Virus record (IMG/VR): IMGVR_UViG_3300043786_001636
Coordinates: 1 to 57,007 of that record
Length of the DNA stretch: 57,007 bases
Reading direction: 5' to 3' (one strand)
Origin: a virus
The translations under genes and the position numbers were made by a program. The notes beneath the pieces were generated by a model, which was not told the DNA's origin, did not search any database, and worked only from the letters and a program-made list of their open reading frames with translations. Below, one piece after another: positions 5,587-34,338 of this stretch (positions are counted from its first letter, which is position 1; each line of letters opens with the position of its first letter).

Positions 5587-6416
5587 ATTGCGGTTGTTGT
5601 CGAGTCGTAAGCGAAGGCGAAGTGATTGCCGCCATCAGCGGCACCGTTGCAGGCGGGTGGGCAACTGTTCTTCCAGGCTTCGGAAGCAGCTTTGAGGCCG
5701 ATGGCTTCCCTGATCCCCCCCCCGGCGGCGTGATCAGTGCCTATGCAATCACCCGGGTCTACCAGCAATACCGCACGAGCAACAACGAGTTAATCGGGGA
5801 GGTGGACGGCGTCCAAACGAATGGGACGATTGATCCCCTCCAAATTTGGCTCCCAAACGAATTCGGCGGATTCGACCAAATCAAAGCGCCTGGAGACCCG
5901 GAAATTGAAGAGACAGGCAACAATCCCACCAATGACGGGGAATTCTATTACGTTTACCTGCACGACCGCTGGGACACGGGAACCTGGACCACTGTTTCTA
6001 CAACCACAACCACAGAAACCGTTGCCATCGAAACGTCTGGCGGGCAAACCTACATCGACGAAGAGCGCCTCAACGGTGGACTGGTCTATCGCAAGGTTTG
6101 GGGGCCGATCATCGGGACCGTAGACCACGATGCAATCATGCAGACGCATGCCCATTTAGAGTTTCCTGTCCGCAACTTAACCAATGATTTCGATTGCGCT
6201 GGCGTAGACCTTGGCACCGTGCTTTCCGTGCATGACGAGGTTGCAAACGAAAGCGTTTTGCAAACTGTGGTCATGGACCAACAACAGGTCACCATACCGT
6301 TGCCGACCACCATGAGCGAGGAGGTCGATGGGGTTTCAGGCGCGCTGAACAATTGGGGTTTTGCTTCCCGCTCAATCAATCATTGCCGCAAACTGGGGGC
6401 GCCGGCAATCCTTTAA
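5583..6416 (+). CDS. Hypothetical virion protein, last gene of the plus-strand late block
   Basis: A 277-aa protein beginning MNCGCCRVVSEGEVIAAISG. The early CxCC cluster is unusual for a phage structural protein. A Thr run (TTTTTETVAIET) lies near residues 138-150. The start at 5583 gives an ATGA overlap with the upstream gene. Its stop (TAA, 6414-6416) overlaps the stop of the giant minus-strand gene (6413-6415), so the two converging genes share stop bases and leave no room for a terminator. No family recognised. Confidence 0.75.
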   Translation: MNCGCCRVVSEGEVIAAISGTVAGGWATVLPGFGSSFEADGFPDPPPGGVISAYAITRVYQQYRTSNNELIGEVDGVQTNGTIDPLQIWLPNEFGGFDQIKAPGDPEIEETGNNPTNDGEFYYVYLHDRWDTGTWTTVSTTTTTETVAIETSGGQTYIDEERLNGGLVYRKVWGPIIGTVDHDAIMQTHAHLEFPVRNLTNDFDCAGVDLGTVLSVHDEVANESVLQTVVMDQQQVTIPLPTTMSEEVDGVSGALNNWGFASRSINHCRKLGAPAIL

Positions 6417-12300: not shown

Positions 12301-15300
12301 CGGACGGGTCAATTCCTCGTTGTTGCGCGAGCCTGTCCAATTCGCGGTCGCGCAAGGCCACGACTGAGTCTCCCTGTCCATGCTGCGCTCCTGCGATGCG
12401 CGTTGACTCCTCAGCGGTAAAAGCCGCAGCCGACTCGGCGCTGCTGCGCTTAATCGGGGTTGCGCCAGATGCGCGGAGGATGGAGTCAGATTCGGGGTTG
12501 AAGCGCTCGTCTAGAGGGACTCCCGTGAAGGCGTCGGCGGATTTGATTTGGTTAAGGGCAACAACGAGTAATGAATTGTGGGCCTTTCCAGAAGGTGATT
12601 CGTCACTAAATAAAAGCGCATCAAAACCCGACGCAATAACCTTCTTTTGAATTGAAGAATAATTTACCGCCTCCGCGATATTGCCGCCAGCAGTGTTTTC
12701 CCAATCTACCCCGCGAACATCATGAAGATTGGCGACCTTCCCATTAAAGTAAAAAGACTGCACCAGCCCATTGTCGGCGTCATTTGCGTAATCACGAGCT
12801 ACATCAGTGTCATCCGTTAAAAAGATCGGCCTGTCTTGCCTTGCGATTTTTTCACCTCCATGAAACCATTTTACAAACCCTACGGAATACCCCGCAGCCT
12901 TCGCCGCCTTCTCCACCAAAGCCTCCGCCTCTTTGCGCTCCGCCTCGGTGATCGTCCCGGCGTTGTGCTTCGCCTCAAGCTCCGCGTGCCGCGCAGACAT
13001 GGCGGGCTCGGCGCTGCTGGCGCGAAGGGTTTGCAGCGCGTCAAGATTCACCACGGCAACCTCTTTACCCATGGCAATCGCATCGTATCCGGCCTCGCGC
13101 AGCGCTTGATTCAACCGCTCAGGGTATTGACCTCCCCGGGTAATCTCAAATGGCGCGATACCTGACGGAACCCTTTCAATGGCGTCCGCAGTGAGCCGAT
13201 AACGCTGACCGGCATCTGGCAAGATCGCATCGAGTTGATCCGCCACTTGGCGCAACCTGTCGATTTCTGCTTGATCCGTCTCGTCGATCTGCAACAATTG
13301 AGGGTTCGCCGCGACAAAGTCCTTCCACTCTTTTGAAAGTTTGCGCGGGTCTTTCTCCGTAGTCGATACATTCAAATCCGATGCCACATCAAGCATCCGC
13401 TCAGGGATCTCAGCAGCGACCACGCGCACGCCGCGCAACGGAACCCCGCGAGTCTGCATGAAAAGCGATGCGTCCGTTGCTTGTTGCGGGCCGCGCCAGA
13501 AATAGGCCACGCCCCCAATGTATCCTCTGTTCCCCGAGGTTTGACCGATTGATTTCTCCGAAAACGTGTCGAACTCCCGATCAGTGCCGTGACTCATCCT
13601 GCGCTCAATCGGGATGGCGGCAGATGCTTTTAGGTTCGACAGCGCTTCGATTGCTTTCTTTGTTGCGCTGTCAGTGACCTCAATGCCCTCTTGTCGCACG
13701 AGCAACGCGATGCGCTGGGCGTGATCTCCGAGGAGCTCTCGGGAATCGTCGGCGTTGTTGACGCCGTTGATGCCCTCCATGCGGTTGGTCCCGGTGTGGA
13801 GTCGGATCCCTCCGATGGTCTTGTTGCCCGTCGGCGGGAGGAGGAGCCAGTAATCGACGCGCGAGAGGTAGTCGCGGGCCATGCTTTCGCCGTTGGTGCA
13901 CCAGCTATCGGGGCTGAGCGCCATCAGGGCTTTCACGGCGTCATCCTCTATGGATGGCACTTCTTCGAATCCGATCTTGTTTAGTTCTTCGTCAACAAGG
14001 ACCGACGCTGCTGCGTTGGCCGCAGACTCCTTGTCTGAATATGTATTACCAAGATCATAGGTCTCCCATCTGGTATGACGAAAAACCCACTGCCCTTGGT
14101 ATTCCGCGATAAAGTCTTGAGCCTCTTCCTCTGTGTCGAAGGTCTTGACGGCTTCATCGCCGTCGGGGTCTGCGGACGAGTTGACCGTAAACCCAAAATC
14201 ATCCTCTTCGGCGTAGAACAAATCAGACACCTGAGCCACTTCGATTTCGGAAAAATCCAAATACCCTTCGATCACATCACGGGCCTTATACTCAGCTTCT
14301 ACGCGATCCGATCCAACGACCTTGCTCCCGTCGGCAAAAGTCACGAACACAGAGGTGCCTGAATTCTTATTCCCCGGCACGAACACCCACCGATGCCCGT
14401 CGCCCGCCTTGATCGTGCGCAAGCCCTTCGTCGCCGCCTTGGCCCGCTCCTCGTCGTAGATGGCTAACGGCGACAGCCCGGGCTCACTCCCTGTCGATTG
14501 CAAGGGAGTCCGGGTTCGCGCGTTGGGTGGGTATTTTGCATCGTAGGCAGCCGCGATCTCCAGCTTCTTCGCACTGGGATTTGACTGCTTGAAGCTGCGA
14601 GCAAAAACGCGAAATGGCGGGCGGGATGTGTCGGTGTAGCTTTCAAGAGGGATCACCTCATCTGCATCCGTCTCATCTGCAATCACCTTGTCCGAATTCT
14701 TTCGGATTTCCTCCATGGTGGATTCAAGGACTTCCGGGTTCAATTCGCGAGGCCGCCCGAACCCATGGTTGTCGCGGGCGCCGATGCTGTGTTCGAGAAT
14801 GTCCCACGCTAGGTTGCGGGCGTATGGGTCGGTGATCTCGCGAATCTTGCCGCGCAATTCCTCAAGCTTGGCGATCTTTTGGGCGAAGTATGCGTCACCC
14901 CATCCCTTTGGACGTTCGGCCATTTCTGCCGCCAGCTTCGCCTCTTCTGCGCGAAGCTTCGCGACCTCGCCCTGCGAATCGTCGAGCATGTTCGCCCACG
15001 CCTCCGCCGCCTCGCGCCTCGGGCGGTTGACGTTCTGCTCCACCCACGCTTGCCATCCTGCTTCCGTAGTGACCAATCCTTCGCCCTTTGAGCGAGCCAA
15101 TTCCGCACGCTCATATTCAGCGTAGGCGTCTTCAAATCGCGTCCACGCCTCGTTTGTCCCAAGTCGTTGCGCTTCAGCCTCAAGCCGTTCGTGTTTTCGC
15201 TTCAACGCGGCAATCGCCCTAAGTTCGGCCTGTTCTCGCGCGATTGATTCGGCGTCCGGAGTGTGCAAAAGGTCCAGCGTATTGCGCCCCTCGGCAATCC

Positions 15301-18300
15301 CATACTTGACTTGCTTCTCAGCCGCCGCACGCACTGCTGGCTCCAAATGACGGACGTCTTCCGGGTCAACTTGAAAACGGTTCTGCGAACGGCGTTGAAA
15401 CTCCGCCTCGGCGAATGCGTCAAGGTCCGCCCGGGTCTTGATCTTCAGCGTGTTGATCCGTCCCCGGCGTCGGCTCAGGAACGCAAAGACGAAGGGCTCG
15501 CTTTGACGGTCCACGTTAAAGCGTCGGGCCATAGCCGAGGGAACCGCCGCGCTGGCTCCGAGGGTGTCGTTCTCTGGCGGCGTGACCGGGTCGGCTTGCG
15601 GCGGGGTGAAAGACTGCTCGGATGGGGTGGTCAGTCCCCCAGAACGTGCGATTCCTTGTCGAACTCCAGATCGTACGCTTCCCTTAGCGTCAGCTTTCTT
15701 CCCATCAGCTTTTCCAGATACGGAAGGCTTTCCTGAAGGGCGCGGACCACTTCCGGCGTCAAATCGAGCCCACTCAGGGTGTCGGATTCCGAGGCCGATG
15801 ATTTGTTGGCGGGTGGATTCGGCATCAGTAGAATTTGCCCACATTTGTGTGACTTGTCCAACGAATGCTTTGGAGCGTTTCAAGTCGTCGGTAAAGAGTC
15901 CACGGACTGCCTCCCAAGTGACCGACTGCATTTGGCGCGGCATAATCCCACGTTCTTCGGCGGCTTGCCGGTAAGCTTCGTGGAACATCCAGTAGATGCC
16001 TGAGTTCCCGCCGCCAGCGACACCGGCATCACCGAAGCTCAACCCGACCAAGTATCCTTTGTTGCCCATAGGATACAACGCCGATGCGTTGACTGCGTGC
16101 GTGTCGATTGTGGCATCGCCAGCAGGGCTGTTTGGGGCGATGATGTTGTTGTAGAAATTGCGGATTTTATGCTCGTTACCCAGTGTCGCCGAGATGTTTT
16201 CCGGTGATCCGTCGTAGGCGACGGAAAGCCCCTTGAGGATGAAAACGTCAGCCTGCCAAACCATCTTCTTAGTGCTTCCGTCGAGGTTCCGGCGCAATCC
16301 TAGGTTTTCTCCTTCTGGGGAAAGGACTTGGTGTTCCAGACCGTGGAAGTGCTGTGAGAGCAGGCGGGTCGCTACTGCGGCGAGGCGTTTGTCGACAAGA
16401 TCGCCGGATGCCCACAGATCGTCGATAGAACGACCCTCCAGTAGCTTGAACTCCTTGCGCCGCTTGGCTGCGTCTTGCGCCGAGTCAAGCATGCCGCGCA
16501 TCGTCTTGCTGAACTGCTTTCGCGTGATTACGACGTCACGGTGATTGGCGAAAACATCCGCCATTCTCTGCGCCATAGCGACATTCTGAAACCAATCTTT
16601 CATTGGTGACAGCACCGCCATGATTCCAGCAGCCTGCTCGTTTGTGATGCCGTTATCGGACGCAATCGACTCTGCGATCAGTCGCGCCCCATCATACCAA
16701 TGTGTTGACCGCACCGTCAGGTTGTGACCCAACGTGTCGAACGCATCGTAAAGAGCAAGGATGTTGCCCTTAAAGAAATCGATGAGGACGTCACGACGAG
16801 TTTCTGGGTCGGTGCTCTCCATCAAATAGGACGGCAAAGGAACGTCATCAACAAAGTGCGTGATTTTGGGCATTTGCTTCGCTAGACCTGCGGCATTCAC
16901 GGAGTGAATGCCGTCGTTGGTGTCGCGGGTTGTCGGCTTGACCTTGCCTTGCCATGCGGTGCCAACTCGACTGAAATCGTGCCTGCCGCTCGGGCGACTG
17001 ATCGGGGTGTTTGCATTAAGGGTTGGCACGGCGGCGGACGCCATCAACATCTCGTTTTCGGGCGGCGTTACCGGGTCGGCTTGCGGCGGGGTGAAGGATT
17101 GCTCGGATGGAGCAAACGTATCCTTGCCTGCATCGACAAGAAGCGCCATCGCTCGCGGATTGTCGCGATTCTTGAGTAGAACAGATTGCGCCGCTAGGGT
17201 GATCTGGTCGGCCTGCATTTGTTGCGACAACGGGATCCCCTTGTCCGCCTCGCGTTTGATAAACGCTCGCGCTTTTTGGACTGCATCCCGTAAACCTTGC
17301 GGGTCTAGTTCGCGTGCAAGGGCGATGATGGCCGGGGCCGTGATCGGTTGCGAAGGAGTTGCGCCGGATGCGTTGAGCGTCTCGTTCTGCCCGTCTTCCT
17401 TCGGCTTCGGCGCGGTGAAGGATTGCTCGGATGGGGTCAGTAGGTCGCCCTGTCCGGCCTCGCGGTCGATTTCGGATTGAGTCCGGGAATCGGGTTCAAC
17501 GAACTCCGTCCCTCGCGTGTTCTGTCCCGTGAGTCGGAATCCTGAGTCCTGCCCGGTGGCGTCCAAGAAATCCTTGTCACGGAAGTCGATTGGCTTTGCG
17601 GGAGTCTCACCCTTGAGTTCCGCAATGGTCGCCGGATCGCCGTAGAATCGTTGAAACCGGGCTTTGTCGGATTCAAGAGATTCAATCCGGGATTGCACCG
17701 CTGCCGGGTCGCGAACGTCCACCCCTAGCTTACGGGCGGCTTCCGGGTTGCGCGCCGCGCCTTTGACCGCGCGGATCTGTTCGTCAATCTCGCGAATCCG
17801 TTTCTGCGATTCTTTGACTAGCGCCACCGCGCTGTTGAGGTTTGCGTCATCGAACCCGAACATGTCGCCCTGCTGGCCTTGTTCGTTCGTGTTCCGAGTC
17901 GCTCGGATCAACTGCGTGAGGGCTTCCGGGGAGAGTTCCCCAGCGTAGCGAAGCCCGACCGCTTGGAGCGCGGCATCGCCCGGAGCGGCTTCAGCTATTG
18001 CGGCGGCTTTGGCGTCCGCGATTCGTCCTGCTGAATGGAGAGCGTAGAGATCAGGGCTGCCGTCTCGGCCAATCGCGAAGCCGGAGCGTCCTTTAGCCCT
18101 TGCAAGAAGACCGCGCGCCACCGCTTCCTCGCGCGTGATTCCTGCGGCTCGGAAGTAAGTTGCGAAGTCGGAGATTGAGCCTTTTTCATCTCGGATATTA
18201 AGCTCAGCGTCTAAGATTTGCGCGTCAAATTTCGTGAATCCATCCGATTCGTTAAAAATTTGCGTCGGGATCGTCTTTTCGCCGTTGCGGCGGAACAAAT

Positions 18301-21300
18301 CCAACCGATGCCGCCCGCTGATGACCTCCACGTCCCCGTTGAGCCTGCGCCACGCAATCACTGGTCCCAGTCCGCGCCGATCCACTTTGCCTTCCAATCG
18401 TTCACCGCGAACGACGCCGGTTTCCGGGTCTGCATTCTCTTTGAAGTTGGGGACGTCCTTCGACAGCTTGAGTTTTGCGACTGGGAACTCAGGCTCAAAT
18501 TCAAACTCAAACGCAACCGCGGTCGCAACATCAGCAACATCAGCAACATCAGCAACATCAGCAACATCAGGCGCAGCGATCAACATCTCTTTCATGGTCG
18601 CGTCCACGTTGCTCACGAAACGCTCCAATGCGATAGACGTCACAACGTCCTCCGCGCTCAGGTCGCGCAACAAGCGGTTCAGCGCCGCCTTTACCCACCG
18701 CAGGATTTTGCTGAAGACCAAGCGCAGTTCCGATTGGCGAATCAAATCCTCTGAAATTTGCCCGCCTGGAATCCTGCCTTCTACCACCATGCGCACCAAT
18801 TCCGATGCCATGTGGAAATCCGTGGCCAATCCTGCGGCGATAGCAGCTTGTTTTGCTTCCTTGGTCTGAAAGTATTCTTTGTTGACCAAAGTTTGCAGCT
18901 TGCGCCCGGCCTCGCTCTTGCCCAATTCGGACCAAACTGCCGCGACTTGCTCTTGCGTGAATTCGCCCTTTGCAATGGCGCGAATCATCGCGTGGTGGAT
19001 GAACTCATGGCGCACGGTTTGCGCCACGTAATCGCGGCGCCCACGTTCCAACTGAGACAAAATAACGCCTCGGTGCAGCACCAACGCCTGCTGCTTCATG
19101 TCGTATTCCATCGGCGGCCCGGTTTTTTCATCGGTCACCACAACTTTTGGAAACGACCGCAACATCGGCGCGACTTCTGGTGCCACTTGCGCCAACCACG
19201 CAATCTGCGCCTCGTTTGGCGATGGCTGCGTTTGCGTTGCTGCAGGAGCAATTTGCTCTTCGACGATGCTCGTGCCTTTAGCAATCGTTGCGCCCTCTCG
19301 CGCAAAAGCCGCAGCAACGTCCTCGTTCGATTGTTGCTCTGCGTAGTCTTTCGTCAGCGTGCGCCCGTCATTGGTCTGAATGGTGTAGCGGAATACCGCC
19401 GCATCCTCCGAGGAAGATGCGGCGGCGTCCTGCCGCCCTTGGCTTTGCGCTTCAGGAGTGCCCACCCCTGAAATTCCAGAAACATTTTCCTGCGCCCTCG
19501 TTTGCGCAGTGGCGCGATTGCCATCCCAGTCGCGCGCTTGTTGCTCAGTCATGGCGCTAAGTTGCGCCACTGCTGGCGACGTTTGCTGCAACCAGGCTAG
19601 GCCAGCGTCGGTGACGATGTTTGCCGTTTGGCCAGCTTCCAAAAACGGCGTATTGATGACGGCTTGCACCGCGCCTATCGCCGCCATTTCCGCTTCTGTG
19701 GCCTGCCCGCCATTGAGGATGCGACCGAGCCCGCGGGCCGCTGCGCGATTCTGTTGCCCTTCTCGGGCGGCTTGCATCTGCGGCGACGCTTCTACGTCCT
19801 GCGGTGCGATCCCTGCCTCCAAAGCCTGCTGGCGAGCCTCTGTGATGGCAGTCACGTCCAAAACCGGATCGGTCTCCTGCGCAGCAGCAACAATCGCCCG
19901 CGCCCGGTCTTGCGTGCGCTGCACCGCCTCGGCAACACTGCGCTCAAAATTCGCAGGGTCATTCAACAAAGCGACTGCGGCCAGCGCCTCGTCGCCGTCG
20001 CGGCTTTGGCCAAACATGCTTTCTGCACGTTGTAACGCTTCCTGCGTTACACCGAGTTCATTTGCCAGACGCGCAGGAGCGATGCGTTGCGCGAGCTCCA
20101 TGTTTGCCCGCAGCACTCGCACCATCGGCTCATTGCTTTCTTCAAGAAGCTTGCGCTGCGCCGTTTGCGCTGCCGGCGTCGTCAAATCCAGACGCGCTTG
20201 ATTGTTGGCGAGGTATTCAAATCGCGATGCTGCGTTTTTGATCTTCGCCGCCCGCGCTGCGATCTGCGGCGTGTAACCGGCGGCAACGAGTTGCTCTGCT
20301 GAGGCTTCAGCCACGGTCGGCAACGAGGCCGCCAGTGCTGCTTTCAGATTCGGGTCTGCGACGTTGTTGAGATCGAAAGTTCCGCGCCCGAGGGCATCAG
20401 CCCTGCGCCCACTGCCGTAGACCATCGGCCCGGACATCATCAATATGCCCATGAGCATTTGCGGGGTCATAGCCACAAACTGCTTCATGTCCGATTGAAA
20501 CCGCGCGCCGATGTCGCCGCGGTCAGCCCCAAACAATTCGGCCACAAGGTCGGCTCCGTAGGGCGTCACCTGTTGCACGACTTCCTCAAGGTATTCTTCC
20601 CCGATCCGCAGGCCGAGGCGGCGACCGAACGAAGCCATGGGTCGCACGCCCACGCGAGCCATGCGAGCCGCAAGCGCTCCTCCCGCGGGGCCTAAACCAA
20701 CTTTGAGCGCTTTGCCCAAAAACCTTTCCACGGCGCCCTGCACCGTGCCGACGAGCACCGCATCCACCAGTTTCTCGGTTGCGGTCATTCGGCGGTATGG
20801 GGGCGGGTTCTCCCCGTTCGCAACTGCCGCGCGATGCTTCAGTTGGTTGTCGCCCTCGATTTGTTGGAGTTGATCTAAACGCTCCCCAGCAAAAGCTGCA
20901 GCCATAAGCGGCACGCCGGCAAAGGGAATGGCGCCGAGACCCATGTAGGGCGCCGAATCGATGACGACTTTGGAGCTTTTCTCAAGGAACCCTTCCGTGG
21001 GCTTGATGAATTTGTCCGCAAACGATCCTTTTGTCGGTTCCCACAAGCGTCCAGTCTGCAGCGCCGAAGGACTCCATTCGCCTTGCTGCAAGTCTTTCAA
21101 GCCCCGAATGAACATGTCGTCCAATGACGCTTGTTTCGCTTGTCTCTGTATGGCTTCGGCTTCCGCTGGCGTGGCCTTGCGCTTGGCGGAGCCTGTGCCG
21201 TAATTGCCCCAAGTGGAACTCATGGGCAATTTGGGCGCGTTTTCGTCATCGACCCACAAAGTCCCGCCTTCCAGCACTTGATCGCGGACTGGTTGTTCAG

Positions 21301-23152
21301 CAGCGAGTTGCAACTGACTCAGCACGTTGCCGATGGCGTTTTCGGCGTCGGTCACAACACCTTTGGCGGATTGTTCGGTCTGGCCAAACTCGCCCGCCAA
21401 CTCCTCGCGCAGAAGCGCCAGAGCCTGGTTGACCTCGGCTTCGGAACCAAAATCAGCTTTCTCGCGCAGACTCGTGATGATTTCCGTGAGCTTTTCTGCG
21501 CCAATTGGACCAACCGCCTTGCGATCCTCCACAACAAATTTGCGAATGTCGTCTGCCATGGCTTTCACCTTGGGTCGCAACGACTCAATCAATTCCTTGT
21601 CTTGCGCTTGCGGCAACCGGATGACGCCTCCCATGCCGGCGGTTCGGTAGATCTCCGTGGCTCGGAACAGATCGGCGCCGCTGTCATAGCCAAGTTCTTT
21701 CGCGACTGGGTCCAACGTCGCAATCTGTTTCGAGCTTGCAACGTCTTCGGCTTTTGCGTCTGGCCCCAAAGCTGCAGCAGCTTTTTGCGTAGCATTTAAC
21801 AGGTCTGCAGAAACGCCTTGTTGCACGGCTTCGCTCATGCTCGGCACCGTGATTTCGCGCAATCGTTGCGTAAACTGTTCCGGCGTCAGTTTTCCTTCCT
21901 TGCGCAGTTTGCGCAATTCCTGCACCTGCGCTTCGACGTTTTTGCGTAGTTGTTCTTGTTCGGTTGCGATCTGCGCAGCCCTTGGGCTTGGCGCTGGCGC
22001 AGGAACAGAGGCTTGAGGAGCGGTTGTTGGGGCCGTAGGAGCCGGAGCAGAAGATGCTGGCGCAGACGAGCTTGGCGCCGGCAATTCGGGAGTCGTTGTC
22101 TCCCCAATTTGAGATTTGGCAGTCACTGACTCCCGAATCTCAGGAGCAGCAGAGGATGCTGGCGCAGACGAGCCTGGCACCTGCGCGTTGAACGCATTGA
22201 CTCGACGGTTTTGCGCTTCAATGCCTGCCATGATTTCAGCCTGCTCGGCCATCAATTGGTCTTGGCCTTGCTTTGCCAAGGCCGCCGCTTTGTTCAAGGC
22301 AATGACTCGATCCAGATCCAGTTGCCTCGACTCCCGCGGGCGAAGGCGGCCAGCTTTTGCTTCAGCGTATCGCCGCTCAATTTCCTGCGCGTCTTGTGCG
22401 ACCTTGGCGTCGAACTGCTTTTGTTTTTGCTCAAACGCTTGCAACCTGGTCTCGGTTGCTTTCGTCGCCTCATCGATTTCTAACTGCTCGTTGATCCGCT
22501 CCCCAGCGCTTGGGGCTTGCTGCACCGGAAAACTCTTTGCCGCAATCTCCGACTGGTTGGCCGAGTCCTGCGCCTTTTTTCGGGCGTCCTCAATGCGTTG
22601 ATACTCTGTCTGCTGCTCGGGCGTGCCGTATTGCGAAATCGTGCTTTCGTCCAACCCTTGTTTCTTCAGGAACTCATCCCGCTGTTCTGCGGCTTGGCGC
22701 GCATAGGTCTTTGCCAATTCCGCAGCAGCATCCAAAGATTGCTGTTGTTCCTTTTTGGTCCTTTGTTGTTGCTCTGCTGCAGCTTTCTCCAAGGCCAATC
22801 GGCGTTGATTTGCTTGGTCGGTGAGGTCTTGCTGTTTGCGCTGCAGTTCTTCTTCTGAGGGGAACTCTACGAAGGGTTGCCCGCTCAGGTCTTTCTGAAC
22901 AGGCAAACCAGTGATTCGCGACGTCTCCTGCACCGAATCGTTCCATTTCGCGCGTTGTTCCTCCGCTTCCCTGCGCAATCGTTCTTGCTTCCGCGCTTCG
23001 CGTTCTGCCTCCTGCGCGGCAAAACCTTGCGCGACCATGCTCATGTCGCGCATGTAATCCTCGCGCGCCTGACGCGACGACTCTCCCAAGTTGGGCGGCG
23101 TGTAGAGCAGGACCGGAGGTTTCTGACGAGGCGGGCGAAGCGGGCTGGCCAT
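6413..23152 (-). CDS. Giant polyvalent internal virion protein, 5,579 aa
   Basis: A single uninterrupted frame covering 29% of the genome. Modules in order (residues): coiled coil rich in A, E, Q and R (35-430); two hydrophobic segments (731-757 and 895-915); metallopeptidase motif HEFIHH (1382-1387); a (DVA)n repeat (about 1530-1542); ParB-like module with SGRHR (1612-1616); a module with a DTHA motif (2044-2530); a long coiled module ending in a WCT motif (2539-3173); four ADP-ribosyltransferase-like modules (3182-3375, 3384-3558, 3924-4127, 4401-4600) with unknown modules between; and an LPD38-like C-terminal region (4600-5579). This is the architecture of polyvalent proteins packaged by phages and ejected to counter the host. 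It sits beside capsid genes, as the giant virion RNA polymerase does in N4-like phages, but I see no polymerase motifs. Confidence 0.93.
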   Translation of the reverse strand: MASPLRPPRQKPPVLLYTPPNLGESSRQAREDYMRDMSMVAQGFAAQEAEREARKQERLRREAEEQRAKWNDSVQETSRITGLPVQKDLSGQPFVEFPSEEELQRKQQDLTDQANQRRLALEKAAAEQQQRTKKEQQQSLDAAAELAKTYARQAAEQRDEFLKKQGLDESTISQYGTPEQQTEYQRIEDARKKAQDSANQSEIAAKSFPVQQAPSAGERINEQLEIDEATKATETRLQAFEQKQKQFDAKVAQDAQEIERRYAEAKAGRLRPRESRQLDLDRVIALNKAAALAKQGQDQLMAEQAEIMAGIEAQNRRVNAFNAQVPGSSAPASSAAPEIRESVTAKSQIGETTTPELPAPSSSAPASSAPAPTAPTTAPQASVPAPAPSPRAAQIATEQEQLRKNVEAQVQELRKLRKEGKLTPEQFTQRLREITVPSMSEAVQQGVSADLLNATQKAAAALGPDAKAEDVASSKQIATLDPVAKELGYDSGADLFRATEIYRTAGMGGVIRLPQAQDKELIESLRPKVKAMADDIRKFVVEDRKAVGPIGAEKLTEIITSLREKADFGSEAEVNQALALLREELAGEFGQTEQSAKGVVTDAENAIGNVLSQLQLAAEQPVRDQVLEGGTLWVDDENAPKLPMSSTWGNYGTGSAKRKATPAEAEAIQRQAKQASLDDMFIRGLKDLQQGEWSPSALQTGRLWEPTKGSFADKFIKPTEGFLEKSSKVVIDSAPYMGLGAIPFAGVPLMAAAFAGERLDQLQQIEGDNQLKHRAAVANGENPPPYRRMTATEKLVDAVLVGTVQGAVERFLGKALKVGLGPAGGALAARMARVGVRPMASFGRRLGLRIGEEYLEEVVQQVTPYGADLVAELFGADRGDIGARFQSDMKQFVAMTPQMLMGILMMSGPMVYGSGRRADALGRGTFDLNNVADPNLKAALAASLPTVAEASAEQLVAAGYTPQIAARAAKIKNAASRFEYLANNQARLDLTTPAAQTAQRKLLEESNEPMVRVLRANMELAQRIAPARLANELGVTQEALQRAESMFGQSRDGDEALAAVALLNDPANFERSVAEAVQRTQDRARAIVAAAQETDPVLDVTAITEARQQALEAGIAPQDVEASPQMQAAREGQQNRAAARGLGRILNGGQATEAEMAAIGAVQAVINTPFLEAGQTANIVTDAGLAWLQQTSPAVAQLSAMTEQQARDWDGNRATAQTRAQENVSGISGVGTPEAQSQGRQDAAASSSEDAAVFRYTIQTNDGRTLTKDYAEQQSNEDVAAAFAREGATIAKGTSIVEEQIAPAATQTQPSPNEAQIAWLAQVAPEVAPMLRSFPKVVVTDEKTGPPMEYDMKQQALVLHRGVILSQLERGRRDYVAQTVRHEFIHHAMIRAIAKGEFTQEQVAAVWSELGKSEAGRKLQTLVNKEYFQTKEAKQAAIAAGLATDFHMASELVRMVVEGRIPGGQISEDLIRQSELRLVFSKILRWVKAALNRLLRDLSAEDVVTSIALERFVSNVDATMKEMLIAAPDVADVADVADVADVATAVAFEFEFEPEFPVAKLKLSKDVPNFKENADPETGVVRGERLEGKVDRRGLGPVIAWRRLNGDVEVISGRHRLDLFRRNGEKTIPTQIFNESDGFTKFDAQILDAELNIRDEKGSISDFATYFRAAGITREEAVARGLLARAKGRSGFAIGRDGSPDLYALHSAGRIADAKAAAIAEAAPGDAALQAVGLRYAGELSPEALTQLIRATRNTNEQGQQGDMFGFDDANLNSAVALVKESQKRIREIDEQIRAVKGAARNPEAARKLGVDVRDPAAVQSRIESLESDKARFQRFYGDPATIAELKGETPAKPIDFRDKDFLDATGQDSGFRLTGQNTRGTEFVEPDSRTQSEIDREAGQGDLLTPSEQSFTAPKPKEDGQNETLNASGATPSQPITAPAIIALARELDPQGLRDAVQKARAFIKREADKGIPLSQQMQADQITLAAQSVLLKNRDNPRAMALLVDAGKDTFAPSEQSFTPPQADPVTPPENEMLMASAAVPTLNANTPISRPSGRHDFSRVGTAWQGKVKPTTRDTNDGIHSVNAAGLAKQMPKITHFVDDVPLPSYLMESTDPETRRDVLIDFFKGNILALYDAFDTLGHNLTVRSTHWYDGARLIAESIASDNGITNEQAAGIMAVLSPMKDWFQNVAMAQRMADVFANHRDVVITRKQFSKTMRGMLDSAQDAAKRRKEFKLLEGRSIDDLWASGDLVDKRLAAVATRLLSQHFHGLEHQVLSPEGENLGLRRNLDGSTKKMVWQADVFILKGLSVAYDGSPENISATLGNEHKIRNFYNNIIAPNSPAGDATIDTHAVNASALYPMGNKGYLVGLSFGDAGVAGGGNSGIYWMFHEAYRQAAEERGIMPRQMQSVTWEAVRGLFTDDLKRSKAFVGQVTQMWANSTDAESTRQQIIGLGIRHPEWARFDAGSGPRPSGKPSVSGKADGKKADAKGSVRSGVRQGIARSGGLTTPSEQSFTPPQADPVTPPENDTLGASAAVPSAMARRFNVDRQSEPFVFAFLSRRRGRINTLKIKTRADLDAFAEAEFQRRSQNRFQVDPEDVRHLEPAVRAAAEKQVKYGIAEGRNTLDLLHTPDAESIAREQAELRAIAALKRKHERLEAEAQRLGTNEAWTRFEDAYAEYERAELARSKGEGLVTTEAGWQAWVEQNVNRPRREAAEAWANMLDDSQGEVAKLRAEEAKLAAEMAERPKGWGDAYFAQKIAKLEELRGKIREITDPYARNLAWDILEHSIGARDNHGFGRPRELNPEVLESTMEEIRKNSDKVIADETDADEVIPLESYTDTSRPPFRVFARSFKQSNPSAKKLEIAAAYDAKYPPNARTRTPLQSTGSEPGLSPLAIYDEERAKAATKGLRTIKAGDGHRWVFVPGNKNSGTSVFVTFADGSKVVGSDRVEAEYKARDVIEGYLDFSEIEVAQVSDLFYAEEDDFGFTVNSSADPDGDEAVKTFDTEEEAQDFIAEYQGQWVFRHTRWETYDLGNTYSDKESAANAAASVLVDEELNKIGFEEVPSIEDDAVKALMALSPDSWCTNGESMARDYLSRVDYWLLLPPTGNKTIGGIRLHTGTNRMEGINGVNNADDSRELLGDHAQRIALLVRQEGIEVTDSATKKAIEALSNLKASAAIPIERRMSHGTDREFDTFSEKSIGQTSGNRGYIGGVAYFWRGPQQATDASLFMQTRGVPLRGVRVVAAEIPERMLDVASDLNVSTTEKDPRKLSKEWKDFVAANPQLLQIDETDQAEIDRLRQVADQLDAILPDAGQRYRLTADAIERVPSGIAPFEITRGGQYPERLNQALREAGYDAIAMGKEVAVVNLDALQTLRASSAEPAMSARHAELEAKHNAGTITEAERKEAEALVEKAAKAAGYSVGFVKWFHGGEKIARQDRPIFLTDDTDVARDYANDADNGLVQSFYFNGKVANLHDVRGVDWENTAGGNIAEAVNYSSIQKKVIASGFDALLFSDESPSGKAHNSLLVVALNQIKSADAFTGVPLDERFNPESDSILRASGATPIKRSSAESAAAFTAEESTRIAGAQHGQGDSVVALRDRELDRLAQQRGIDPSAVAWAKDLFARWFRGRNFIQQVRADWDQAVEEDGENGRALMAAIEVHQAMFRAAYGDQTVIGVRARVPDFGTQVDGVDWSKRGDNVNVAFRIAGTSLWRVDQSYKAADLPAVLGEKLAKQIVKNRAQQGRIVGLDLKIRNRDMESPPMKGGLKERKLESGMSVVAFADANAPLGRQTMPLVREPGSQTELVTAHIRPEEIAAIGAIDTDAEHRPYGELLLLGTGKILSARTLVGPDTDPAKAIDRLVRKTRVEAENRRTSVANTANSKRKERSTYLRNKRISLDESLPDVDANGKSNILYASEAAPSPINTARADAAHMEAVNRGDLATAQRLVNEVAKQRGLREGYHYSPKTGSFDVFRANPGELGIHFGTKGQAESRQIAKGVTLAFGPNAARENRRLAEERERNTARYFLDLRNPLRVPDLGSWTEETLGPELTRQGIAHDGTLRGMQGALEAVGYDGLIYRNESELEADGTMTDSVAVLRPNQIKSAAASTGVPLSQRFDLSSDSILRSSNAEPTGLDNFVPSAQSGGMATGDGAAQNSPTPQGGLTDADRAWNAFYAAKKEAQQERSRIVEQSKENENASFGSLKWENGDDEGYWNARTRDGDWLTIFEDGNRFGYYGSVGSEEFEGIADTFREAAAYVEDEVNTAKRDENFKDESSWEQSLWELKDTFVVPPGVHGFSFDTSGQGQLGDFRRSQSLYGEGYFDQAGDDSDANRFRFSVRDHEPTEKWQQVHGFLDAYFLTEKQMPLESVANAIDEAENWLADAVKQRNVLRSSDLEPIGLTDADREYLDAVARGDLETAQRMVDAAAKAAGFVKWFHGGEKIARQDRPIFLTDDTDVARDYANDADNGLVQSFYFNGKVANLDDVRGVDWENTAGGNIAEAVNYSSIQKKVIASGFDALEFDDESPSGKAHNSLLVVALNQIKSADPVLRDESGQVIPLSVRFPESRASQGGALRAYAGEIEARDAQTLAANLRTPVALGMGGIGLERALNQTTGRVISSALASTDPANPEIQRNIAKGLETAANIVERIPMIGPIAKMVLEKAPAELIPHWGVAAEAVAAQREANIGMSRANMRGKEWLRLFREGGTSEVLGLHLPKAIAQDPVAQRAIFDYLVGDAPIAAVPPEARPVAQAARRTIDVLSRQAAKAGILNPTTVAAGLGTYLRRFYLKHEANRYGLMGIIGDALERHNDRKMLKNKMNLEYTMARLSDAYAVVIPGAKPKPVPHSADGRWRFDSAAERDAWFANFLDEQTARRMDITPNMVKQADRLEIGLRSQIRNVRQQIADEYELIEPKTDAELTAMGLIRDPGYVVGKIVSVMDHDIALAQMFAKMAVNPELVSDTLRPGFVRMGDNKALGAIAGKYVEENLARDLYTLAKAGDDAVKIYDALMAAWKEGKTVWNPATHGRNILGNIMFADFAGVSPVSPANWGYYSDAWTLVVKRQAAGSVNYAELYDQGVLGADIGQQEFATAIQALMGPSPNLTGFAAVLGKLRENVNNAYQVEDALFKAAAYVKARKSGLSPKAAAEYVRQWFPYYDEVAQSGTVRTLKRTIMPFYSFYAESMRIANNAIRYRPATFLKYMAMPTLLTHIGLTLLGYDDDDKEAVQAELRGHQKLGPLDFYMSMPFVVNGELQQIDLTNVNPYASSVGMRVEEGREPDPMLVRLGRGWLSSPMTSMAIATLMNRDVFTDKPVIHSEMRWWEQAGAILKALYNTLAPAPITSSGAVPRTADLGVNLLPPQSPLKDLAQRMDLGNVQRSTMAKRTAGGDVLRSWTGIDIRNATPQVWRIANRWAQRNGIGLGPEPGGDTDRIGRARQRIYQAILNNNPRAVQRELDALGRIGAKDRKAPNAVLTAKQFAEIIDSRDPLSNLRGEKGEKGEDRRARFLKEISPVERASVEKLTKEWLAMKQTAIRDIWPEVLRLRKQQAAEEQQGGYNLPLPGQNPPVKPGAYMVPLED
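9353..9952 (-). other. Giant protein: ADP-ribosyltransferase-like module 4
   Basis: Residues 4401-4600. RGDLETAQRMVDAAAKAAG is followed by WFHGGE (W4438), then the same FLTDDTDVARDYA and QIKSAD elements as module 2. It ends PVLRDESGQVIPLSVRF, a fuller form of the ART tail than in module 2. The central 116 residues are almost identical to module 2. Confidence 0.7.
9506..9853 (-). repeat. 348-bp direct repeat, copy A (ART module 4)
   Basis: Matches 12533-12880 without gaps and with only about half a dozen differences visible by eye. It encodes the core of ART module 4. The block is clearly more AT-rich than the surrounding gene, which suggests a recently acquired and duplicated cassette. Confidence 0.93.
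10772..11383 (-). other. Giant protein: ADP-ribosyltransferase-like module 3
   Basis: Residues 3924-4127. RGDLATAQRLVNEVAKQRG leads into GYHYSPKTGSFDVF (H3965), then GIHFGTKGQAESRQ, then GYDGLIYRNE, and ends with VLRPNQIKSAAAST and PLSQRFDLSSDSIL. It has the same order of elements as modules 2 and 4 but differs widely in sequence, so it was acquired or diverged separately. Confidence 0.68.
12479..13003 (-). other. Giant protein: ADP-ribosyltransferase-like module 2
   Basis: Residues 3384-3558. A helical lead (EALVEKAAKAAGYSVG) precedes WFHGGE (W3429, H3431), then RPIFLTDDTDVARDYA, then GFDALLF and ALNQIKSADAFTG, and the tail VPLDERFNPESDSIL. This order (A-A-K-x-A-G, HG, FLTDD..A.DYA, QIKSAD, RF) is the classic layout of polyvalent ART modules. 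It is nearly identical to module 4 at DNA level. Confidence 0.7.
12533..12880 (-). repeat. 348-bp direct repeat, copy B (ART module 2)
   Basis: Same orientation as copy A at a constant offset of 3,027 bp. Differences change few residues (for example FSDES against FDDES, and LHDV against LDDV). Recombination between the copies would delete exactly 1,009 codons in frame. Confidence 0.93.
13028..13609 (-). other. Giant protein: ADP-ribosyltransferase-like module 1
   Basis: Residues 3182-3375. It begins RRMSHGTDREFDTFS, a variant of the HGT...F..F opening of ADP-ribosyltransferase (ART) modules in polyvalent proteins. It continues with a Y-F strand (GGVAYFWRGPQQATDASLF) and closes with YDAIAMGKEVAVVNLDALQ, where the Glu is a candidate catalytic residue. 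It is more divergent than the other three copies. Confidence 0.55.
13634..15538 (-). other. Giant protein: coiled-coil module ending in a WCT motif
   Basis: Residues 2539-3173. The first half is charged and helical (ALKRKHERLEAEAQRLG). The second half contains SPDSWCTNGESMARDYLSR around W3084-C3085-T3086, followed by DYWLLLPP and a basic IRL strand. The W-C-T, Y-L, then aromatic-hydrophobic pattern recurs in phage and conjugative-element proteins of unknown function. It is bounded by border motifs at L2531 and L3174. Confidence 0.45.
15563..17023 (-). other. Giant protein: module with ALSPMKDW-type and DTHA motifs
   Basis: Residues 2044-2530, bounded by module-border motifs at L2036 and L2531. 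It contains STHWYDGARLIAES, MAVLSPMKDWFQNV and ATIDTHAVNASALYP. I have seen related blocks as free-standing phage proteins of unknown function. The DTHA segment recalls the catalytic Asp region of helix-hairpin-helix DNA glycosylases, but no helix-hairpin-helix was identified, so that comparison is speculative. Confidence 0.5.
17873..18526 (-). other. Giant protein: ParB/DdrB-like module
   Basis: Residues 1543-1760. It opens with VAKLKLSKDVPNFK and contains ISGRHRLDLFRRNG (1611-1624), matching the ParB N-terminal motif in which a GxR(H/R)R segment binds nucleotide. A helical section follows (ITREEAVARGLLARAKG). ParB-like modules recur in polyvalent proteins and may act as a CTPase or a nuclease. 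The activity here cannot be told from sequence alone. Confidence 0.65.
18525..18569 (-). repeat. Five tandem copies of a 9-bp unit in the giant gene
   Basis: GCAACATCA is repeated five times without error and encodes a (DVA)n linker between the metallopeptidase and ParB-like modules. Being a multiple of three, gains or losses would change linker length without frameshift. Confidence 0.95.
18653..19195 (-). other. Giant protein: zincin-like metallopeptidase module
   Basis: Residues 1320-1500. H1382-E1383-F-I-H1386-H1387 in the context QTVRHEFIHHAMIRA fits the HExxH zinc-binding and catalytic motif of zincin peptidases. Metallopeptidase modules of this kind are a known component of phage and conjugative polyvalent proteins. 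The third zinc ligand is not obvious. Possible substrates are host proteins or the giant protein itself. Confidence 0.7.
20363..21235 (-). other. Giant protein: hydrophobic, possibly membrane-inserting region
   Basis: Residues 640-930. Two small-residue-rich hydrophobic stretches, near 731-757 (APYMGLGAIPFAGVPLMAAA) and 895-915 (LMGILMMSGPMVYGSG), flank an amphipathic section. By analogy with ejection proteins that form a channel across the envelope, this part may enter the membrane. That is inference only. Confidence 0.5.
21863..23152 (-). other. Giant protein: N-terminal coiled-coil region
   Basis: Residues 1-430. After a Pro-rich start (ASPLRPPRQKPPVLLYTPP) the sequence is dominated by Ala, Glu, Gln, Arg and Lys with heptad-like spacing (QERLRREAEEQRAKW), interrupted by a Pro/Ser/Ala linker at about 325-390. 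Such ends are common in internal virion proteins that fit through a portal. No enzyme motif is visible. Confidence 0.75.
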
Positions 23153-31124: not shown

Positions 31125-31359
31125 GTTGCTGGTCAAGCACGTCAAGTTGTCCCGGCGCCCATTGCACGACCCAGAGCAAAGCGTCCCGTCGCGCCCGCAG
31201 AGCGGGGACTTCCTCCGGTTTGCAATGCTCTAAAAGAGCGTTTTCGATGGTGCCGATGGCGGCGTCCAACGCTTCCTGCAGACGAGCGTAACCTGGCGTG
31301 GCCACGAACTTCGTGAGGTCGTCGTGTCGCTTTGCGTCTTCGGGCGTGAATCGGTTCAT
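31087..31359 (-). CDS. Small protein coupled to the portal gene
   Basis: A 90-aa helical protein, MNRFTPEDAKRHDDLTKFVATPGYARL onward. Its ATG overlaps the portal stop (ATGA). Proteins of this size and position are found next to large N4-like portals, and a role in head assembly is possible. The 3' end overlaps the opposing membrane-protein gene by 38 bp. Confidence 0.72.
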   Translation of the reverse strand: MNRFTPEDAKRHDDLTKFVATPGYARLQEALDAAIGTIENALLEHCKPEEVPALRARRDALLWVVQWAPGQLDVLDQQLSRPGGNSRTLI

Positions 31360-33530
31360 ACGCTGGGCTCCACCGCCATGAGGGGTGATGTGACCGGCGC
31401 AGACGGCAACGGAGCTCCCTGCGGCGGGATAGGTGCCGATTGCTCAAGCAGTTCGATTGCCATTTCGGCGTTCGGCGTTTCAAACAGTCGCAATTGCCGC
31501 AACGTCAGCGCTCGGATCGCCGCTTTGACTTCGGGTGGTTGCGCCGCAAAATCTTTGAGCATGGCAATGGCCGCGAGGTTTTGCTGGCTCTGCGCCTCGG
31601 CCCGGAACCGGCTGATTTCGAGGCGCAAATCGAAATCGAATTCCTCGACATTCGCTCGCTCAATGGTTGCCACGGCCACCTCGTTGCCGGCCAGGTAACG
31701 GAAGGTTTCTTTTTCGTCCATGTTCTGCAGCAGCAATTTTATCGCGGTGTGCGTGGCGGCTTCAATGCCTTCGGAGAGTTGGGCAATGAACGGAGCGAAC
31801 TGTTCTTGGTTGGACCGCTCAAGGTGCCGAATGCCAGTGGCCAAATTAGCGGTCTCAAGGCCGGCCATCTGCGCGTCGTTGCTGCTGCTGACGCCTGACA
31901 TGTTCGTCATCATTTGCGTGAGGAACTCAATCATTGCCTGCAGGTTGTTCTGCTTTATGTCAACGATGGGTGTCGCCGTGAACCCGACTTTGCCAGTCGA
32001 GTTTGGCAAACGAGTGTAAACGTGCCCTCCGTTTAAAGCCACGTTGACCGGGTTGGGCTGGCCCTCGAAGTCGCGGTAGACCGACGGGTCCATTTCGTAG
32101 AAGTAGCCGCTGCGCTGGTTGCTCAGGTTGATCCGGTTGAACTGCAGATCGATGCTGCTGTTGAGTTGCCAGCAATCCTCCACCGCCGATTGACCGTGCC
32201 AGCGGTTGTCCACCGGATTGACGCGCACGCAGTGGAACGGTCTGCCGGGGGCGTAGTTGGCGAGGTAATCGTAGAAGATTGGGCGCATGTTCGCCTTGTC
32301 TAAGAGCACGACGATGTTCTGGGTCTGCCCGCGGCCCAGCGCGTCGTAATGCAAGTAGCACTCGGCGATTTCCATGTTCGGTTCCACCGTCAAAGAACTG
32401 TCGTTGGAGGAGACCTGCCCGCTGTAGCCTGGGCTGTAAGTGATTTCGCCCAGGTCGGCCCGGGGAGATCGCTCCGCCGTCCATTGCCTTCTTTGGCCGC
32501 CTTGGTTGCGCAACAATTCGATGATCTTGGGGAGGTTGTCGGCTTGCCCGCTGCGCTGCAAATGCGCCATGTACTCGCCAGCCACGTCAATTGCGGGACG
32601 CGAATAGAGGTGCGCGATGAATTTGGCATCGTCAATGCTGCGTTCGCGCGGGCTGAGAAGGACGTCCTTGTAATTGGGAATTGCGAGGTCAAGCCCGTTA
32701 AATTGGATTTTTTCGCGGTGGATCAGGCGGTAATCAAACACCAGGTTGGCCTCGTCGCCTTCCGCCCAGTTTGGCAAGGCCGTTGTTGTTGACCGGCTCA
32801 AAACCCGGTAGGTCTGTGTCTCGTCCCATTCCCAGTAATCGCTTGGGAAAATGTAATCGCCGTCATCTGCCACGAGGGGTTCGCCATCCACGTCAATGGC
32901 GACCTCGGCGTATTGCTGGTAGTATTCCGATTGCTTGCGCCAGGTAGACTTGACCAAGGCTTCGCCGCGGATAAAAGCGAAAGCGATTGCTTGCGCCAGA
33001 ATGGGTTGAATTTTGGCACGGTTAAAGGCCCATTTGGTCCAGTCGTCCACCAGACGCGCAGTCTCCGCGTCATCTGCGCCTGCAGGAGAGATCGTATACC
33101 ACGGGTCGGTGCCAAAAAAATACCCCTGCGCCCGGGAAATCTGCTGCTTCACGATCCGGTGCGAAAGAGGAATGTGTATGTTGCTCTCTCGGAAAATGGG
33201 CGCCGAGAATTGCCGCCACTCAAGCTGCATCGCGTAGATCATGTCCCACTTTTCTCTTTTCCCGAAAAAGGAATTCATGGGGTCTTGCTCCTGATTGTCC
33301 GTGCTTGACGCATGCTGGCGCCACCAACCTGGTTCGTTGACAATGTTGCGACCCATCTCCGCTTCCAGACCGGCGATTTGCTGGCCGATGTGGAGCATGA
33401 GTTGGTCTTCCTGTTCTCGCGTGAGTTCCAGCGCTGAGGCGAACACGGTGCGGGGCGCGTCTGGCGGCAAGGAAACCTCTAGTCGGCCAGGCAGGGTTGA
33501 CAGGAACGCGTCAAGTTGGTTGCTTTTCAT
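31356..33530 (-). CDS. Portal protein
   Basis: A 724-aa protein that forms the dodecameric ring through which DNA enters and leaves the capsid. The size is in the range of N4-like portals. Supporting features are its place upstream of scaffold and capsid, a central RPFHCVRVNPVDNRWHGQS segment followed by LNSSIDLQFNRINLSNQRSG (the portal crown and clip pattern of long podovirus portals), and a helical C-terminal part (NLQAMIEFLTQMMTNMSGVSS). The ATG at 33530 is chosen because the longer frame lacks an ATG. It overlaps the upstream small gene by 20 bp. Confidence 0.85.
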   Translation of the reverse strand: MKSNQLDAFLSTLPGRLEVSLPPDAPRTVFASALELTREQEDQLMLHIGQQIAGLEAEMGRNIVNEPGWWRQHASSTDNQEQDPMNSFFGKREKWDMIYAMQLEWRQFSAPIFRESNIHIPLSHRIVKQQISRAQGYFFGTDPWYTISPAGADDAETARLVDDWTKWAFNRAKIQPILAQAIAFAFIRGEALVKSTWRKQSEYYQQYAEVAIDVDGEPLVADDGDYIFPSDYWEWDETQTYRVLSRSTTTALPNWAEGDEANLVFDYRLIHREKIQFNGLDLAIPNYKDVLLSPRERSIDDAKFIAHLYSRPAIDVAGEYMAHLQRSGQADNLPKIIELLRNQGGQRRQWTAERSPRADLGEITYSPGYSGQVSSNDSSLTVEPNMEIAECYLHYDALGRGQTQNIVVLLDKANMRPIFYDYLANYAPGRPFHCVRVNPVDNRWHGQSAVEDCWQLNSSIDLQFNRINLSNQRSGYFYEMDPSVYRDFEGQPNPVNVALNGGHVYTRLPNSTGKVGFTATPIVDIKQNNLQAMIEFLTQMMTNMSGVSSSNDAQMAGLETANLATGIRHLERSNQEQFAPFIAQLSEGIEAATHTAIKLLLQNMDEKETFRYLAGNEVAVATIERANVEEFDFDLRLEISRFRAEAQSQQNLAAIAMLKDFAAQPPEVKAAIRALTLRQLRLFETPNAEMAIELLEQSAPIPPQGAPLPSAPVTSPLMAVEPSV

Positions 33531-33717
33531 TGCGCAGGAAGGATTCAATGGCTTGCGCGGCTTTCAAGGCTCGCCTGTAAGCTCGGCCTCGATTGCCGTG
33601 CGCGCTGTCGCCGAAAAACAACCGCAGCCGTTTGCCTTGCCGAGCAAAAGCAACTTGGTAGCCGTGTGGCCCGCGGATGACATGGCTGAATGTGCGCACC
33701 GATGGGTTTCTTGGCAT
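33511..33717 (-). CDS. AP2-like DNA-binding small protein
   Basis: A 68-aa basic protein. The core GPHGYQVAFARQGKRLRLFFGD followed by GRAYRRALKAAQAIESFL has the three-strand plus helix pattern of AP2-like DNA-binding modules (G-Y-x-V, R-x-G-K-R, FF, then an A-rich helix). Such modules occur free-standing in phages, in homing endonucleases and in integrase N-termini. It is the first gene of the minus-strand portal-capsid run and could regulate it. Start at 33717 chosen for the clean domain boundary. Confidence 0.62.
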   Translation of the reverse strand: MPRNPSVRTFSHVIRGPHGYQVAFARQGKRLRLFFGDSAHGNRGRAYRRALKAAQAIESFLRNEKQPT

Positions 33718-33817
33718 GATTGGTTGGCAAATGCACCTGCAAAAAACGCTCCGCGCGGAACTCTGTTGAAGTTGGCGGAACAAAACTCAAGGTTTTGCGG
33801 GTGAATGCAGATTTCGG

Positions 33818-33846: not shown

Positions 33847-33912
33847 CCGTAGCGAAACGCTCTTGGGCGTCGCCGGGAGCGTCCTCCCCGGCCTGATGAG
33901 ACAGGACAACGG
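33847..33912 (+). ncRNA. Type II hammerhead ribozyme
   Basis: All invariant core parts are in order. GAA (33854-33856) is followed by stem III ACGCU/GGCGU (33857-33861 with 33866-33870). The cleavage site GUC ends at C33871. Stem I is GCCGGG/CCCGGC (33872-33877 with 33887-33892), then CUGAUGA (33893-33899). Stem II is the open one: C33853 pairs G33900, and CCGU (33847-33850) pairs ACGG (33909-33912) across an internal loop. Loop I has GUCCU (33881-33885), complementary to AGGAC (33903-33907) in that internal loop, a tertiary contact known in bacterial type II hammerheads. Cleavage is predicted between 33871 and 33872, 82 bases before the downstream start codon. Confidence 0.85.
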
Positions 33913-33953
33913 CCCGGCGGAACCGGGATCATCAAACGCAAAAGCGAGAGAGA

Positions 33954-34256
33954 ATGAAATATAGAATGGATGACGGGACCGTAGTTGACACAGACCGCGC
34001 GTCAAATCACTGGAACGAAGACACGTTCTGGGACGGCAACAACCACATCAGCCGGGCAACGGGTTCGCAGTGGAATCACCAAACCCTCTACCAATCCCGA
34101 AAGGGGCGCTACTACGTGGAAAGCACGAGTCAATGGCAAGGATCGCGCGACCATGTCGAATGGGTCAGCCGGGAAGAGGCCGCCCGATGGTTACTGGCGA
34201 ACGAGCACCAGTTGCCGGAAGATCTGGCAAATCTCGAAGACGAGATTACTGAGTAA
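33954..34256 (+). CDS. Small conserved-type protein downstream of the ribozyme
   Basis: A 100-aa protein, MKYRMDDGTVVDTDRASNHW onward, with NHISRATGSQWNHQTLY, KGRYYVE and SQWQGS segments and a helical end (WVSREEAARWLLANEH). I recall near relatives as free-standing small proteins in diverse bacteria and mobile elements, without known function. Its message begins with the hammerhead ribozyme and a short CCCGG/CCGGG hairpin (33913-33927), so its 5' end would be a 5'-hydroxyl after self-cleavage. It has its own strand and is closed by a strong hairpin (34309-34338), so it looks like a single-gene unit. Confidence 0.8.
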   Translation: MKYRMDDGTVVDTDRASNHWNEDTFWDGNNHISRATGSQWNHQTLYQSRKGRYYVESTSQWQGSRDHVEWVSREEAARWLLANEHQLPEDLANLEDEITE

Positions 34257-34308
34257 CTGAGTAATTTGCCGAAAGGCATTGGCGGCGCGCATAGCGTCAA
34301 CTACCACG

Positions 34309-34338
34309 GACCCGCGTCAGAGCAATCTGGCGCGGGTC
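34309..34338. terminator. Bidirectional terminator-like hairpin with GNRA loop
   Basis: 13 pairs (one G-T wobble) between 34309-34321 and 34326-34338 close a GCAA tetraloop. It lies between two converging genes (stops at 34256 and 34364). There is no long T run on either side. Confidence 0.65.

Follow-up and report, generated by a model that had tools for sequence, protein, structure and literature searches.

A candidate self-cleaving type II hammerhead ribozyme with a loop I pseudoknot ahead of a lone phage gene

Pseudoknotted type II hammerhead ribozymes have already been described in phages (Perreault et al. 2011; PMC3088659). In that work, mutation and compensation showed that fast cleavage depends on the pseudoknot, a pseudoknotted type II hammerhead was fast in vitro, and prophage hammerheads of A. 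tumefaciens cut themselves in vivo in E. coli. Fast cleavage was also seen in a type II construct with a single stem II pair, and another type II ribozyme became slower by orders of magnitude upon deletions or insertions near the pseudoknot (PMC3088659). In prophages, arrays of hammerheads flank single genes (PMC3088659, figure 3; PMC6155905), and the role of phage hammerheads has been described as an open question (PMC6155905). When RiboJ was placed before a gene in E. coli, transcript levels rose about twofold on average and protein levels two- to tenfold (PMC6206723).

We examined a viral record of 57,007 nucleotides (IMGVR_UViG_3300043786_001636; the window, meaning the whole stretch of DNA analysed), in which a preliminary description had recognised a phage leader with a type II hammerhead. 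The ribozyme is not a new kind; it is another example of one known from phages since 2011, which makes the find less surprising than first thought. It shares with bacterial and prophage type II hammerheads (RF02276, PMC3088659) the core order, the closed stems I and III, a putative short open stem II, the pseudoknot between loop I and the 3' strand, the phage context and a small gene downstream. Unlike the usual members, this copy has an extra A in stem II, a sub-threshold Rfam score and, instead of a site between two operon genes, a place in a lone-gene unit. As in the prophage arrays, a small ORF without functional assignment follows it closely, but it is a single copy, and no second hammerhead of any type was found in the 57-kb record. 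RiboJ is engineered and derives from a different hammerhead source, so that its likeness to this leader would be functional only, the proposed effect in both cases being a cleaved leader with a defined 5'-OH end before the gene. The features are as follows:

33850-33910, plus strand: type II hammerhead ribozyme (Rfam Hammerhead_II, model positions 1-66; descriptor; shuffles)
33852-33853, plus strand: 5' strand of stem II, G11.2 and C11.1, pairing with C33902 and G33900 with A33901 bulged
33853, plus strand: C11.1 (sequence)
33854-33856, plus strand: core GAA (sequence)
33857, plus strand: A15.1 of GAAA, first base of stem III (sequence)
33857-33870, plus strand: stem III hairpin, 5 pairs, loop CUUG (sequence, descriptor)
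33871, plus strand: C17, the base after which the cut is predicted (from its place in the hammerhead core)
33872-33892, plus strand: stem I hairpin, 6 pairs, loop AGCGUCCUC (sequence, descriptor)
33881-33885, plus strand: pseudoknot strand in loop I, GUCCU, complementary to 33903-33907
33893-33899, plus strand: CUGAUGA core (sequence, Rfam alignment)
33900, plus strand: G10.1 (sequence)
33903-33907, plus strand: 3' pseudoknot strand AGGAC, offset 2 after G10.1 (sequence)
33929-33934, plus strand: UCAUCA, complementary to core UGAUGA at 33894-33899 (fold of the 3' cleavage product)
33954-34256, plus strand: gene P0001 for a 100-aa protein, predicted accessory (relatives, alignment, predicted fold)
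34309-34338, plus strand: strong hairpin after the gene, 13-14 bp, GNRA-type loop GCAA (repeat search; fold z = -5.19)

The invariant core by which RF02276 is recognised, GAAA, UH and CUGANGA in type II order, was found in the sequence, in the Rfam alignment and by the descriptor. The preliminary description had listed all core elements in this circular order, and a check of the sequence reproduced every coordinate it gave, together with its 6 pairs in stem I and 5 in stem III. Stem III joins 33857-33861 to 33866-33870 (A-U, C-G, G-C, C-G, U-G) and stem I joins GCCGGG (33872-33877) to CCCGGC (33887-33892), with hairpin loops closing both stems, as a type II hammerhead requires. Hammerheads cut 3' of H17, leaving a 2',3'-cyclic phosphate and a 5'-OH; since C17 is position 33871, the cut is predicted at 33871/33872.

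Upon searching with the Rfam model RF02276 at relaxed thresholds, all 66 of its 66 positions were matched with 31.4 bits, and the E value was 4.3e-6 for the 57-kb record and 0.018 across all 4227 Rfam families. The covariance check proposed earlier returned a full-length match, but one below the gathering cut-off of 37 bits, so that a default Rfam scan of the window lists nothing; this cut-off is a curation threshold and not a biological property. Scores of 28-36 bits are also seen for other phage copies that have above-threshold copies beside them in one contig. A strict type II descriptor matched a single site in the window on either strand, and 200 dinucleotide-preserving shuffles of the whole window, searched on both strands, gave 1 match, and 0 when a pseudoknot of at least 5 bp was demanded. 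The descriptor also found no match on either strand of 258 kb of other DNA fetched for the downstream gene. The Rfam match, the descriptor and the shuffles together establish that the feature is real as a motif. The covariance match, the shuffles and the place of the pseudoknot all speak for a predicted type II hammerhead in a phage leader, and we consider it likely that the hammerhead is genuine and would cleave.

Next, we compared the ribozyme with a collection of 523 distinct type II hammerheads, all but this copy from other viral contigs, obtained with exact core patterns and thus biased toward perfect cores. GUCCU in loop I is fully complementary over 5 bp to AGGAC, as had been proposed. 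Such a pseudoknot is known from bacterial and prophage type II hammerheads (PMC3088659), and most members, though not all, carry it. Among the 153 phage hammerheads of a first set, 53 had at least 4 bp of pseudoknot starting 0-5 nt after G10.1 (about 20 expected from tails re-dealt among loops) and 22 had at least 5 bp (4.2 expected), with 33 of the 53 at offset 2 after G10.1, the modal value and the very offset seen here. A second set with A at position 10.2 (n = 133) had 82 with at least 4 bp against about 18 expected, and 63 with at least 5 bp against 5.8. These counts are somewhat inflated by related sequences.

Stem II is where this copy departs from its relatives. Type II hammerheads have an open stem II of about two pairs adjoining the core. 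Here the G33900-C33853 pair is present, and the Rfam alignment treats A33901 as an insertion in the 3' strand; the second pair forms only with A33901 bulged and is absent in register. AGGAC had earlier been placed in an internal loop of stem II and is better placed just beyond the 3' end of a 2-bp stem II in which A33901 is bulged; the outer CCG/CGG helix that would close the putative internal loop has just 3 bp and is unsupported. An unbulged Watson-Crick second pair is present in 513 of the 523 distinct hammerheads, this copy counted once, and covaries cleanly (G-C 353, U-A 139, C-G 19, A-U 2). The first two search patterns fixed one side each of this pair, and hence did not impose the pairing itself, while the last two, smaller in effect, were aimed at copies in which G faces A or the C is shifted. 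G11.2 stands opposite A10.2 in only 4 of the 523, namely this copy, L029, L298 and L317 (3 of the 522 others). L029, which likewise has a bulged A followed by C-G pairs in stem II, a 6-bp pseudoknot and an ORF 29 nt downstream, offers a precedent for the stem II seen here. The RF02276 consensus, as aligned here, appears to pair G-G in stem II, one base off the C11.1-G10.1 register.

The free-energy fold of the ribozyme region is unremarkable (z = 0.11), and for the isolated RNA a structure other than the hammerhead is predicted; the hammerhead lies 7.7 kcal/mol higher with the pseudoknot excluded, in an energy model that omits both the pseudoknot and folding during transcription. For about a quarter of the phage relatives the gap is at least as large. 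Upon folding the 3' cleavage product, UCAUCA was predicted to pair with the core UGAUGA, a possible alternative fold of the cleaved leader. As a general trait such core-masking was found in 3 of 148 phage hammerheads, with no enrichment. That the two segments form a two-state switch around a small CCCGG/CCGGG hairpin, so that either the cut itself or what becomes of the leader afterwards would be regulated and not constitutive, strikes us as very improbable.

Upon examining the sites of the collection, we observed that the ribozyme typically fills the gap between the stop codon of one operon gene and the start codon of the next. A same-strand ORF of at least 90 codons ends 0-20 nt before the ribozyme at 313 of 547 sites, against about 25 expected at random, and the core is followed, at a median distance of 29 nt, by the first start codon with a ribosome-binding-like site (547 sites); such a start codon falls within 60 nt of the core at 398 of the 528 sites with such an ORF, compared with 74 of about 490 random positions. 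The 547-site counts include near-identical contigs, and spacing was taken from direct stop and start distances, a greedy gene caller having been dropped because it often put phantom ORFs over the ribozymes. Several copies occur together in 107 stretches, with up to ten copies each and never on both strands; the loci L066, L021, L033, L079 and L221 are arrays of this sort, with 5 to 10 type II hammerheads spread over a few kilobases of a single strand. This stop-ribozyme-start arrangement fits the proposal that long phage transcripts are cut into single-gene messages (PMC3088659).

In the present window, the start codon of the single small gene described earlier, at 33954, lies 82 nt past the predicted cut and 54 nt past the core, inside the 60-nt range typical of the relatives. 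The 100-aa gene stands alone on the plus strand, flanked by minus-strand genes, with no same-strand gene upstream. Its protein has relatives in 30 viral contigs and 8 bacterial assemblies from scattered phyla, a spread that fits a mobile accessory gene, and its predicted fold is confident (mean pLDDT 88); it has no significant fold match in the PDB and no Pfam or PHROG family. Among 38 related loci no convincing hammerhead was found near the gene, and the gene and the ribozyme are therefore not an obligate pair. RF02276 matches of 14-25 bits in 7 related-locus records were too weak to be accepted as real, and the CUGANGA that lies 44 nt ahead of the L144 relative has no partner elements. The hairpin at 34309-34338 probably marks the 3' end of the single-gene unit; as no good U-run follows it, its terminator role is putative. 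A near-perfect palindrome at 34245-34265 (ATTACTGAGT A ACTGAGTAAT) spans the stop codon of the gene.

To the left of the ribozyme lies an SU10-type portal gene (31356-33548, minus strand) and to the right an integrase gene. The portal gene is preceded by a small minus-strand gene, and the ribozyme begins about 130 nt upstream of where that gene is likely to start; this ORF (33511-33717, minus strand) resembles AP2-type DNA-binding domains by eye and has no Pfam match. A plus-strand ORF at 33295-33804 is antisense to the minus-strand genes and looks like a phantom. A sigma-70 scan gave no promoter with a start at the ribozyme, and TATAAT/TTGACA showed no clear positional enrichment upstream of phage hammerheads. 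A portal-protein search found no close phage relatives in viral contigs, and two distant relatives in phage records, at 21% identity. The leader and gene had no DNA relatives among phage records, and no close relative of this particular ribozyme was found. Elsewhere in the window, a 5579-aa open frame (6413-23152, minus strand) with a DUF7178 match and two ADP-ribosyltransferase-in-polyvalent-protein matches is, as judged by these domains, a giant polyvalent phage protein.

We propose, as a moderately likely reading, that a type II hammerhead with a pseudoknot between loop I and the 3' tail occupies the 5' leader of a phage unit made up of one free-standing gene, where it would cut itself and trim the message. 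The RNA would cleave at 33871/33872 during transcription, anything upstream of the cut would be removed, and the mRNA of the 100-aa gene would then begin with a 5'-hydroxyl and the GC-rich stem I hairpin. Some RNA decay enzymes prefer 5' phosphate ends, and the likely benefit would be a uniform, 5'-end-protected message regardless of where transcription starts, as with RiboJ. Cleavage, its speed with A33901 bulged and its effect on the message are predictions, whereas the core, stems and pseudoknot rest on sequence and statistics. Counted against the leader-ribozyme reading are the sub-gathering score, the extra A, the energy gap, the missing sigma-70 site and the missing close relative of the ribozyme.

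The departures of this copy could also mean that it is decaying, a hammerhead by descent that came with the gene module, lost its fast activity through A33901 and now serves no purpose. Unlike 513 of the 523 hammerheads, this copy has no second stem II pair in register, the relatives of the downstream gene have no hammerhead upstream, and the position, with no same-strand gene just before the ribozyme, is atypical. However, the core, both hairpins and the 5-bp pseudoknot are intact, and decay would not keep them for long; the construct with one stem II pair cleaves fast (PMC3088659), and L029 shares the bulged A, yet with more stem II pairs, a 6-bp pseudoknot and an ORF 29 nt on. Decay appears unlikely to us. 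That the ribozyme is a look-alike, a non-catalytic or chance hairpin region merely matching the core, would agree with the score below the Rfam gathering cut-off and the ordinary fold energy, but we hold it to be extremely improbable given the E value for the record, the shuffle counts and the correct phage and leader context.

The typical site raises the further alternative that a longer plus-strand transcript is cut into single-gene messages here too, from a promoter further upstream or after an upstream gene was lost or inverted. The stop codons found 0-20 nt before the ribozyme at most sites between phage genes speak for such processing, as does its proposal for prophage arrays (PMC3088659). 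Against it, the upstream genes in this window, the portal gene and the likely small gene, are on the minus strand, and the sole nearby plus-strand ORF is the antisense, phantom-like one; we regard processing of this kind as quite unlikely at this locus. With no credible plus-strand gene upstream, operon cutting becomes less likely here and trimming of a single-message leader more likely, and on balance the main role of the ribozyme is probably to trim the leader of the 100-aa gene.

Overall, the survey quantifies the usual layout on viral contigs, in which stop codon, ribozyme and start codon lie close together and always on one strand. Because the gene at the present locus stands alone, with no operon effects, the locus would provide a clean test case for a protected 5' end as opposed to the cutting of operon messages.
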